From positions 457,001 to 521,000 of the forward strand of contig NZ_CP139957.1 in NCBI RefSeq assembly GCF_034343125.1: a stretch of DNA of 64,000 nt. The letters run 5' to 3'. The position numbers and the translations under genes are program-made. The notes below the pieces were generated by a model. That model ran no database searches. It worked only from the letters and a program-made list of their open reading frames with translations, and was not told the DNA's origin. Shown here piece by piece: positions 52,027 through 58,797 of the stretch; the first letter of the stretch is position 1, and the number at the start of each line of letters is the position of its first letter. Origin of the DNA: Caldicellulosiruptor danielii. Lineage in GTDB: Bacteria; Bacillota; Thermoanaerobacteria; Caldicellulosiruptorales; Caldicellulosiruptoraceae.

Positions 52027-52031
52027 TTTCC

Positions 52032-52137
52032 TTGACACGAATAAAAATACATGCTAAAATAATTCAAAATTTCTTCTAAAGGCTATAAAGAATTTAAGGA
52101 AAATCCCGTCCGACGGCAAAAGGTAGAATGGTCGGAC
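52032..52137 (+). promoter_or_regulatory. Promoter and attenuator-like hairpin before ilvB
   Basis: TTGACA (52032-52037), 17-nt spacer and TAAAAT (52055-52060). Forty-seven nt later GTCCGAC (52108-52114) pairs with GTCGGAC (52131-52137), followed by TTTTC. A competing short hairpin CCGTC/GACGG overlaps its left arm. No T-box consensus and no leader peptide rich in Leu, Ile or Val were found, so the control signal is unknown. Confidence 0.65.
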
Positions 52138-52164
52138 TTTTCATATATAAAAGGGTGGTTTTGG

Positions 52165-55340: not shown

Positions 55341-55356
55341 AGAGTGAGGGGTTTTG

Positions 55357-56880
55357 ATGGGAAAGAGAGTTATAAAGATATTCGATACCACGCTAAGAGA
55401 CGGTGAGCAGACACCAGGTGTTTCGCTCAATGTAAATGAAAAGCTTGAGATTGCAAAACAGCTTGAAAAGCTCAAAGTTGATGTTATAGAGGCTGGGTTT
55501 GCAATTGCATCACCTGGTGATTTTGAGGCTATAAAGACAATTTCTGAGAATGTCAAAGATGCAGTTATTGTGTCTTTGGCAAGGGCGGTTGAAAAGGATA
55601 TCGACAGGGCGTATGAGGCTCTCAAAAAAGCTTCAGCTCCAAGAATTCACACATTCATTGCAACAAGCGATATTCATATGAGGTATAAGCTCAAGATGAC
55701 AGAGGATGAGGTTTTAGAGAGAGCAGTTGCAATGGTAAAGTATGCAAAAAAATATGTATCTGACGTTGAGTTTTCTTGTGAGGATGCAACACGTTCAAGG
55801 ATAGAATTTTTGATAAAAGTGTTTGACGCTGTTATAAAAGCTGGTGCAACAGTTATAAACATTCCCGATACGGTAGGCTACACAACACCTGAGGAGATGA
55901 AGAGGATTATAAGAGCTATAAAAGAAGGAATTCCTGACATTGACAAGGTTCAAATTTCAGTTCATTGCCACAACGACCTTGGCCTTGCAGTTGCAAACTC
56001 ACTTGCAGCGGTAGAGGAAGGAGTTCATCAGGTTGAATGCACAATAAATGGTCTTGGTGAGAGGGCTGGGAATGCTGCTTTAGAAGAGATTGTAATGGCA
56101 CTCAAAACAAGAAAAGACTTTTACGATGTTGATGTATTAATTGACACCACACAGATTTACCGAACAAGCAAGCTTGTATCATCACTCACAGGCGTGTTTG
56201 TTCAGCCAAACAAAGCAATTGTTGGTGCAAATGCATTTGCGCACGAATCTGGTATACATCAGCATGGAGTGCTTTCAGAGAGAACAACATATGAGATTAT
56301 TGACCCTGTGTCAATTGGACTTCCTAAAAATAGGATGGTTTTGGGCAAGCACTCTGGTCGCCATGCATTTGAAGAAAGGCTCAAAGAGCTGGGATACACT
56401 GACCTTACAAGAGAAGAGATTGATGCTGCATTTGAAAAGTTTAAAGTCTTGGCAGACAAAAAGAAGGTTGTGCTTGACAAGGATATAGAAGCACTCTTGG
56501 AGCAAAAATCTCTCAATATTCCAGAGACGTATGAGCTTGTGAGGTTCCAGATAATAAGCGGAAATGACTTAATCTCAACAGCATCTGTCAAGATAAAATC
56601 AGGTGAAGAAGAGTTTGAAGAGGCAGCAACTGGCGATGGTCCTGTTGATGCAATCTTCAAGGCAATTGACAGAATCACAGGTCTTCAGGTTGAACTTGAT
56701 GATTACAGTATAAAGGCTGTCACCCAGGGCAAGGATGCTCTTGGTGAGGTAACAGTCAGAATTAAGAAGGATGGCAAGGCATTTTTGGGAAGAGGCTTGT
56801 CTACAGACATTTTAGAAGCAAGCGCAAAAGCGTATGTAAATGCTATAAATAAGATGCTGTATAAGATTTCAGAGGAATAA
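55357..56880 (+). CDS. leuA: 2-isopropylmalate synthase
   Basis: The protein has 507 residues from ATG 55357 (TGAGGGG upstream; a TTG three nt earlier is less likely). DRE-TIM barrel: [32 protein letters not shown] and [12 protein letters not shown]; the metal His and catalytic loop are present. The C-terminal domain is the leucine-binding regulatory one. First committed step of leucine synthesis. Last gene of the ilv operon; leuCD and leuB are not in the window. Confidence 0.96.
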
Positions 56881-56958
56881 AATTGACTCTTTACAATTTT
56901 TTAATTTGGGTTTAAAATAATTAGCAAATAAAACTTGAGGGTCAAAGGGGTGCAAAAG

Positions 56959-57123
56959 ATGATAATACGAATATGCGGCGCAATCACAATAATTAGCATT
57001 ATTTCAATAATTAGAAAGAGAATAATTAAATGGATTTATAAAATTTCATATGCCGCATTGCACCCATTTTGGCCTGTGTATGAGCAAAGAGGGTTTTTGA
57101 AAAGACCCTTGGGGCATCTTTAG
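56959..57123 (+). CDS. Isoleucine-rich leader peptide of cimA
   Basis: A 54-codon frame with AAAGGGG 8 nt before ATG 56959. In its first 30 codons 14 are Ile (IIRICGAITIISIISIIRK then RIIKWIYKI). Such composition is typical of ribosome-stalling leader peptides that sense the cognate charged tRNA. It precedes an intrinsic terminator and citramalate synthase, an isoleucine-pathway enzyme. The second half (HPFWPVYEQRGFLKRPLGHL) may also be coding, or the stretch is used for RNA pairing. Confidence 0.8.
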   Translation: MIIRICGAITIISIISIIRKRIIKWIYKISYAALHPFWPVYEQRGFLKRPLGHL

Positions 57124-57159
57124 GATATGTTAATCAAATTTGAGATTGAATTTCAAAAG

Positions 57160-57190
57160 CCCAGCCTAAAAATCACAGGCTGGGTTTTTT
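57160..57190 (+). terminator. Attenuator terminator before cimA
   Basis: CCCAGCCT (57160-57167) pairs perfectly with AGGCTGGG (57177-57184), followed by TTTTTT. A competing pair GCCTGTG (57072-57078) with CACAGGC (57174-57180) would break this stem. An upstream pair ATGCGGC (56973-56979) with GCCGCAT (57052-57058) spans the Ile codons. Confidence 0.85.
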
Positions 57191-57216
57191 TGATATTCAT
57201 AAAGGAGGGATTTTCA

Positions 57217-58797
57217 TTGGCGGATAAAAAAGAAATTATTATCTATGACTCAACTTTAAGAGATGGTGCTCAGGCTGGTGGAATTTCATATACTCTGGAA
57301 GATAAGCTCAAGATTGTAGAAAGACTTGACAAATTTGGTGTGAAATTTATCGAGGCAGGCAATCCCGGCTCTAACATCAAGGACCAGGAGTTTTTCGCAA
57401 GAGTTAAAAAGATGAAATTGAAAAATGCAACGCTTATTGCCTTTGGTTCAACAAGGCGAGTAGGAATTGACGTGAAAGATGATCCTAACATCCAGTCACT
57501 CATTGTAGCTGATACCGAAGCTGTTGCAATCTTCGGAAAATCATGGGATTTTCATGTTAAAGAGGTTTTGAAAACTACAGAAGAAGAAAATCTTCAGATG
57601 ATTTATGACACTATAAAATATTTAAAGTCCTTGGGCAAGTATGTTGTATTTGACGCAGAACACTTTTTTGATGGTTACAAAAATAACAAGAAATACGCTT
57701 TGGAGACTTTAAAGGTTGCAAAAGAGGCAGGAGCAGACTCATTAGACCTGTGCGATACAAACGGTGGCACCTTCCCAATGGATATTTACAACATCACAAA
57801 AGAAGTTGTTGAGATGTTTCCTGGGACATTGATTGGAATTCACTGCCACAACGATACAGGTATGGCTGTTGCAAATTCAATCATGGCAGTTTTGGCAGGA
57901 GCACGTCAGGTACAGGGAACTATAAACGGATATGGTGAGAGATGTGGAAATGCAGACCTTATCACACTCATTCCAAATCTTCAGCTAAAACTTGGTTTTA
58001 AATGTGTACCGGATGAGAATATCAAACATCTGACTTCTCTTTCAAGGTATGTTGCTGAGATTGCTAATATGATTCCAAACGAAAGAGCACCGTATGTTGG
58101 AGCGTATGCATTTACTCACAAGGCTGGTATGCATATTGATGCTGTCAAGAAAAATCCAGCATCTTTTGAGCATATTAATCCTGAGGTTGTTGGAAATACA
58201 AGAAGAATAGTACTGTCTGAGGTTGCAGGAAGATCTACAATTCTTGACAAGATTCGCGAGATTGACCCGACAGTTACAAAAGACTCACCTGTGACAAAAG
58301 ATATTATTGATGAGCTAAAGCGTTTAGAGAATGAAGGGTATCAGTTTGAGTCTGCAGAGGCTTCGTTTGAGATGCTAATTAGGAAAAAACTTGGGCTTTA
58401 CCAGCCGTTCTTTACACTAAAAGAGTTTAAAGTTTTGATAAACGAGCCAGCAGTTGAGTACAGCTCATCCGCAATTGTCAAGATTGCAGTAGATGGTGTT
58501 ACGGCAATCACTGCTGCAGAAGGTGATGGTCCTGTTCATGCTTTAGATAGTGCTTTGAGGAAGGCTTTGGAAAAGTTTTATCCCGAGCTCAAAGAGGTGC
58601 ATCTTGTTGACTATAAAGTTAGAGTGCTGAATGCAGAGACTGCAACTGCTGCAAAGGTCCGAGTTTTGATTGAGTCAACAGACGGCAAAGATACATGGAC
58701 AACTGTAGGTGTTTCAACCGATATTGTCAATGCAAGCTGGATTGCGCTTGTGGATTCATTAGAGTATAAGCTTTGCAAAGAAAAAGTGTGGGAATAA
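57217..58797 (+). CDS. cimA: (R)-citramalate synthase
   Basis: The protein has 526 residues. The start is TTG 57217, 9 nt after AGGAGG; an upstream ATG at 57127 would place the terminator hairpin inside the coding part. Motifs: IYDSTLRDGAQAGGISY, GNPGSNIKDQEFF, SLDLCDTNGGTFP, IGIHCHNDTGMAVANS and GYGERCGNADL, diagnostic of CimA rather than LeuA. It makes citramalate from pyruvate and acetyl-CoA, the start of the threonine-independent isoleucine route. Regulation by Ile is expected from the leader. Confidence 0.94.
   Translation: MADKKEIIIYDSTLRDGAQAGGISYTLEDKLKIVERLDKFGVKFIEAGNPGSNIKDQEFFARVKKMKLKNATLIAFGSTRRVGIDVKDDPNIQSLIVADTEAVAIFGKSWDFHVKEVLKTTEEENLQMIYDTIKYLKSLGKYVVFDAEHFFDGYKNNKKYALETLKVAKEAGADSLDLCDTNGGTFPMDIYNITKEVVEMFPGTLIGIHCHNDTGMAVANSIMAVLAGARQVQGTINGYGERCGNADLITLIPNLQLKLGFKCVPDENIKHLTSLSRYVAEIANMIPNERAPYVGAYAFTHKAGMHIDAVKKNPASFEHINPEVVGNTRRIVLSEVAGRSTILDKIREIDPTVTKDSPVTKDIIDELKRLENEGYQFESAEASFEMLIRKKLGLYQPFFTLKEFKVLINEPAVEYSSSAIVKIAVDGVTAITAAEGDGPVHALDSALRKALEKFYPELKEVHLVDYKVRVLNAETATAAKVRVLIESTDGKDTWTTVGVSTDIVNASWIALVDSLEYKLCKEKVWE

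Follow-up and report, generated by a model that had tools for sequence, protein, structure and literature searches.

A probable isoleucine-dependent leader-peptide attenuator upstream of cimA in Caldicellulosiruptor danielii and its relatives

The ilvL leader of E. coli and Salmonella, and leaders of the trpL type, combine a short open reading frame (ORF) rich in codons for the product of the pathway with a Shine-Dalgarno (SD) sequence, competing long-range pairings and an intrinsic terminator. In Firmicutes the usual tRNA-sensing control of such genes is the T-box, which senses the tRNA directly, without translation. Among the leader-peptide attenuators described from this phylum, that of the Staphylococcus aureus ilvD operon is Leu-rich with some Ile (PMC5794164), Rli60 of Listeria is a ribosome-mediated attenuator before ilvD with mixed branched-chain codons (PMC5864092), and comparable attenuators have been reported for his genes (PMC2965389, PMC9413887). 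Consequently, this kind of attenuator is not new in Firmicutes. For cimA, we found no description of an attenuator in the open-access literature (subscription papers lay outside the search), in agreement with a first-pass annotation of the locus considered here, which knew of none. Below we describe a leader that is very probably a ribosome-mediated transcription attenuator of the trp/ilv type, through which charged tRNA-Ile would control cimA within, yet independently of, the ilvBNC-leuA operon.

The leader was found in a 64,000-nt stretch of the C. danielii genome (hereafter the window), where the gene order is ilvB-ilvN-ilvC-leuA-cimA, with cimA last, and it occupies the region between leuA (55354-56880) and cimA. 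The latter encodes (R)-citramalate synthase, the first isoleucine-specific, or committed, step of Ile synthesis, and begins with a TTG start codon preceded by the SD sequence GGAGGG (57204-57209). The features of the region, in order along the strand, are as follows.

56890-56918, plus strand: promoter-like TTTACA (56890-56895), 17-nt spacer and TAAAAT (56913-56918), located after leuA and ahead of the leader ORF.
56939-56955, plus strand: arm 1 (GGGTCAAAGGGGTGCAA), which includes the leader SD AAAGGGGTG; predicted to pair with 57058-57075 at 37 and 70 °C.
56959-57123, plus strand: Ile-rich leader ORF of 54 codons, ATG to TAG, with the sequence MIIRICGAITIISIISIIRKRIIKWIYKISYAALHPFWPVYEQRGFLKRPLGHL and then the stop.
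56962-56973, plus strand: Ile codons 2, 3 and 5 (ATA ATA CGA ATA), the ribosome placement that blocks arm 1 in the masked-ribosome scan.
56973-56979, plus strand: arm 1' (ATGCGGC), inner helix; predicted to pair with 57052-57058 in 12/12 genus genomes.
57052-57075, plus strand: arms 2' and 2 (GCCGCATTGCACCC-A-TTTTGGCCT), the predicted partner of arms 1' and 1.
57072-57078, plus strand: GCCTGTG, putative 5' arm of the antiterminator; it shares bases with the end of arm 2 (GGCCU).
57090-57109, plus strand: predicted small hairpin AGGGTTTTTGAAAAGACCCT within the ORF, in its 3' portion, confined to the genus.
57155-57191, plus strand: intrinsic terminator (AAAAGCCCAGCC / GGCTGGGTTTTTTT), whose loop and 3' arm contain CACAGGC (57174-57180).
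57217-58797, plus strand: cimA, (R)-citramalate synthase (TIGR00977, 770.5 bits; cut-off 450).

Elsewhere in the window, a tmRNA gene (RF00023, 190.5 bits) lies on the minus strand at positions 43-408.

The composition of the leader ORF sets it apart from every other frame in the window. All 14 of its Ile codons fall within codons 1-30, exactly the count given by the first-pass annotation, and of the 2576 frames in the 64-kb window that have a start codon and measure 20 aa or more, it has the most Ile per 30 codons; the runner-up has 9 Ile (two longer versions of the leader ORF being set aside) and the best of the other frames with an SD reaches 8. In 2000 trials, dinucleotide shuffling of 56881-57216 produced no more than 9 Ile, and A+T richness alone therefore does not explain a value of 14. 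At the window Ile frequency of 9%, the probability of at least 13 Ile of 29 is 4e-7 (uncorrected for the number of frames). The Ile codons comprise 6 ATA, 7 ATT and 1 ATC, against a window usage of 42, 48 and 10%, and so no single Ile isoacceptor appears to be favoured overall, although the first three Ile codons are all ATA. As in leader-peptide attenuators, we are thus dealing with a translatable ORF enriched in codons for the regulating amino acid. The same annotation had claimed a ribosome site and a downstream terminator with a T-run, and both are present, as SD AAAGGGGTG at 56944-56952 and as arms CCCAGCC (57160-57166) and GGCTGGG (57178-57184) followed by T7; of the limits that it gave for the element, the start at 56959 is exact and the end at 57190 falls inside the T-run. 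It had overlooked the putative internal promoter at 56890-56918, a 24-bp hairpin, and the loop-toehold nature of the antiterminator.

Sequence comparison establishes the ORF with its conservation and coding selection, the pairing arms, the terminator and the linkage to cimA. Our sample of the order consisted of 13 genomes (the present one, 11 others of the same genus and 1 from a sister genus), all of which possess cimA, and in 13/13 the element lies directly upstream of that gene, in one copy each. The frame, the Ile codons, the SD, both long-range arms and GCCTGTG/CACAGGC are kept across the sample, with 11-14 Ile in every one of the 13 upstream regions, and the conservation of Ile run and arms on which the first-pass annotation had staked its reading is thereby borne out. 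In its own genome the leader was found at one place only; 11/13 genomes have a single occurrence of the SD-start pattern, and the other two differ slightly between SD and start. In 11/12 genus genomes the leader has 54 codons; that of the remaining genome begins with GTG and, through an in-frame deletion of 6 nt, has 52. Across the genus the stop codon is TAG, TGA or TAA at the same codon position, and several indels outside the leader frame are not multiples of three. Moreover, 19 of 43 substitutions in the leader frame are synonymous, an excess (P = 0.0025) found in neither of the other two frames; this pattern shows that the leader ORF is under coding selection. The leader of the sister genus has 32 codons, 11 of them Ile (MIIIRICKSIILKISVIKFINNIIYKCTQLGL).

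The predicted promoter TTTACA-17-TAAAAT is likewise kept in 13/13 genomes, among them that of the sister genus. There, cimA does not follow leuA but lies elsewhere and adjoins a divergent gene that we read, from its sequence, as rpmB, and promoter, leader and terminator have moved along with cimA. Consequently, the element belongs to cimA and not to the ilv-leu operon. The operon carries features of its own upstream of ilvB, where the spacer and flanks of a TTGACA-17-TAAAAT promoter (window 52030-52160, loci L112-L123) are nearly constant across 13 genomes, the sister genus included (ACGAATAAAAATACRTGC), a constancy suggestive of a bound regulator; a resemblance of this region to an ArgR-box is only an impression. 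A conserved GTCCGAC...GTCGGAC-TTTT hairpin follows that promoter, without any leader ORF.

An improbable alternative is that the ORF encodes a real small protein (a membrane peptide or type I toxin-like), its Ile residues forming a transmembrane segment, and that the terminator before cimA is constitutive. The peptide is indeed hydrophobic and basic, and purifying selection within the genus reaches codons 45-54, where 7/10 changes are synonymous (P = 0.006). However, this C-terminal part is absent from the sister genus while the Ile codons, arms and terminator stay, a Pfam search of the peptide returned no match, the sole site in 13 genomes is directly upstream of cimA, and a small protein leaves the invariant GCCTGTG/CACAGGC and the SD hairpin unexplained. 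Plain attenuation does not explain the conservation of codons 45-54, which may reflect a second role of the peptide or the overlapping RNA hairpin at 57090-57109. The closing A-T of that hairpin is G-C in locus L013, and the hairpin is absent from the sister genus. Conservation of GFLKRPLGHL within the genus (codons at window 57091-57120) is at the level of the peptide, although none of these codons is a regulatory Ile codon.

Still less probable, in our view, is that leader translation acts through arrest by the nascent chain (conserved C-terminus RGFLKRPLGHL) or through a slow CGA codon, and not through plain Ile starvation. Genus-wide conservation of the C-terminus at the peptide level would suit arrest, and the seldom-used CGA between the Ile codons (41/608 Arg codons in the window) is invariant in 13/13, as part of ATA ATA CGA ATA throughout the genus and of ATA ATA ATA CGA ATA in the sister genus. 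Yet the sister genus lacks the C-terminus, and the feature shared by all is the 11-14 Ile codons.

Structure prediction for the leader RNA yields, as its strongest feature, a 24-bp hairpin in which 56939-56955/56973-56979 are paired with 57052-57075, and this is the minimum free energy fold at both 37 and 70 °C; folding of 56930-57085 has a z of -3.05 against shuffles. The hairpin is predicted in 12/12 genus genomes, and its core GGGTGCA/TGCACCC is intact in 13/13. In the sister genus, where the core is retained, the outer helix is rebuilt from partly different bases and both sides of the inner helix (arm 1' and its partner) are missing. According to our folding model, this long SD-containing hairpin would be the element that couples the position of the ribosome to arm 2.

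As in other attenuators, a terminator stands between the leader ORF and the structural gene, kept in 13/13 and ending 25 nt upstream of the cimA start. Across its loop and 3' arm this terminator carries CACAGGC (57174-57180), the complement of GCCTGTG, and the alternative pairing of the two, by overlapping the 3' arm, excludes the terminator. Each of the 13 upstream regions has a single GCCTGTG (P = 0.0025 by shuffling for its occurrence in the 115-nt region), always 6 nt after TGCACCC (13/13). Both GCCTGTG and CACAGGC are invariant in 13/13, the remaining bases of the terminator loop varying freely, and the sister genus retains both motifs though most flanking sequence differs. Pairing outside the terminator is the only ready explanation for the persistence of CACA in an otherwise diverging loop. 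The first-pass annotation had also looked to covariation in the stems. This was realised in the outer pair of the terminator, which reads G-U here against G-C in the rest of the genus and A-U in the sister genus and is, judged by sequence, a genuine two-sided change; otherwise covariation is weak and almost untestable, because the arms scarcely vary in the 12 genus sequences. The argument for the putative antiterminator is one of conservation, not covariation. In the model, it would compete through a loop toehold for the 3' half of the terminator, unlike the competition for the 5' half in trp and his attenuators.

How the ribosome stalls, in what order the RNA folds and how cimA itself is regulated we infer as follows. 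Transcription would start at the internal promoter (56890-56918), and a ribosome would initiate the Ile-rich leader peptide at an SD doubling as arm 1 of the large hairpin. With tRNA-Ile charged, the ribosome would pass through arm 2 and cover GCCTGTG, or would finish, allowing arms 1 and 2 to re-pair; GCCTGTG being unavailable in either case, the terminator would end transcription before cimA. With tRNA-Ile uncharged, the ribosome (or others queuing behind it) would be held at or near the first Ile codons and cover arm 1. The freed arm 2 and GCCTGTG would then bind CACA as a toehold while the terminator loop emerges, and extend the pairing from there over CACAGGC. Capture of CACAGGC would delay or prevent the terminator, and cimA would be transcribed.

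Folding calculations, in which the ribosome was modelled as a masked stretch of RNA (tertiary structure, kinetics and RNA polymerase pausing lying outside the model), narrow the conditions under which this could operate. The antiterminator proposed in the first-pass annotation, whose arms are kept in 13/13, is with arm 1 masked the best fold only when the RNA 3' end lies at 57180-57182, and at 70 °C the ribosome is needed. Once the 3' end has reached 57184, the terminator is the stabler fold with or without a masked ribosome, and antitermination must therefore be kinetic. A ribosome at codons 1-4 lowers the antiterminator deficit at 70 °C from 7.1 to 1.6 kcal/mol; across the scan at that temperature, the deficit is 1.6-1.8 kcal/mol at codons 1-4 and 6.3-7.1 at codons 5-29, and a ribosome at codons 34-46 lies over GCCTGTG itself. 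Since the low deficit is confined to codons 1-4, the invariant early ATA codons would be those placed to work, and since, in the model, arm 1 is not blocked from Ile codons past about codon 5, these later codons would need a queue of ribosomes that reaches back to the start. The sister element, treated in the same way, shows a fall from 4.9 to 2.2 kcal/mol; its leader stop codon lies inside GCCTGTGA, and a terminating ribosome would therefore cover the antiterminator arm.

Attenuation is favoured by the Ile density, the sole site at cimA, coding selection, the invariant GCCTGTG/CACAGGC, the two-sided change in the terminator, the hairpin, the masking model, the role of cimA and the T-box search described below. 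Against it are the need for a queue at the later Ile codons, arms that scarcely vary, a leader stop that, in the genus, lies 42 nt past GCCTGTG, a pairing with the terminator 3' half that is unusual for the class, and a terminator that remains the stabler final fold in the model even with a masked ribosome.

A T-box (RF00230) was detected in 0/12 genus genomes, in one copy in the sister genus and in 8-13 copies per genome in neighbouring families of the class, with 44 candidates scored per genome, a depth at which a divergent T-box could be missed; this amounts to an apparent loss of T-box control by a whole Firmicutes genus. The first-pass view that Firmicutes mostly use T-boxes is qualified by the branched-chain leader-peptide attenuators already described (PMC5794164, PMC5864092). 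The leader region itself had no T-box match at the gathering score in a covariance-model search (RF00230), and an Rfam search of it returned no family match; the top hit in the region, leu-phe_leader (RF01743, Lactococcus), reached 19.6 bits (E 0.7) against a gathering score of 70, and we reject membership. Least probable of the alternatives is that the RNA senses something besides charged tRNA-Ile (as a metabolite riboswitch, a T-box relative or a protein-bound leader) and that the ORF is incidental: a structured leader with a terminator before a biosynthetic gene would fit, but there is no Rfam match at the gathering level nor a meaningful score at E up to 10, and the ORF-bearing loop evolves as codons, not as an aptamer. 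Together with the conserved Ile run and arms, these T-box and Rfam results support the earlier reading of the cimA leader as an attenuator responding to Ile starvation.

Beyond this locus and order, our searches were negative. The pattern of the element is absent from the rest of the class (37 genomes), a weak result, as its gap limits miss most genus members. Among 97 cimA loci from other Bacillota and Treponema, no convincing Ile-rich leader precedes the gene, the best counts being 6-9 Ile in frames mostly without fitting context. In other families of the class (L015-L022, L023, L026, L031), a conserved promoter box of the TTCACTTT..TGATTCAATTTGATAAAATAT kind, with the look of an inverted repeat and without a leader ORF, precedes cimA, and is possibly a protein-controlled promoter. 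Genus-wide replacement of T-boxes by leader peptides is not supported so far: five genomes yielded no convincing leader ORF with a terminator in front of trpE, ilvD and ileS, nor did three of those five when the regions before trpE and ilvD were followed further upstream.

If attenuation is correct, the citramalate route to isoleucine has its own amino-acid-specific switch, apart from the shared branched-chain operon, and a Firmicutes lineage without detectable T-boxes uses leader-peptide translation instead, in organisms that grow near 70 °C. The element is small, conserved in one copy per genome and easily tested with a reporter, and its removal could help the engineering of branched-chain products in these thermophiles. 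More speculatively, and we hold this to be rather unlikely as a whole, it may represent a new architecture in which the switch hairpin has the leader SD as its 5' arm, the ribosome is read out at the first codons (ATA ATA CGA ATA) or through a queue reaching back to the start, the terminator 3' half is attacked through a conserved loop toehold, the genus has lost its detectable T-boxes, and the C-terminal peptide adds a second, arrest-like layer.

Set beside described systems, the cimA leader resembles ilvL and trpL in joining a product-codon-rich ORF, an SD, competing pairings and a terminator before a biosynthetic gene. Unlike them, it is enriched in Ile only and would control cimA only, its arm 1 is its own SD region, and its antiterminator would take the terminator 3' half via a loop toehold. 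In common with Listeria Rli60 and the S. aureus ilvD leader, it would be a case of ribosome-mediated branched-chain attenuation in Firmicutes without a T-box, yet those leaders precede ilvD, not cimA, and have mixed codons and different structures. The Lactococcus leu/phe leader (RF01743) is likewise a leader-peptide RNA from a Gram-positive, though only weakly matched here. From the T-box, finally, the cimA leader differs in its proposed dependence on translation of the leader, whereas the T-box senses the tRNA itself.
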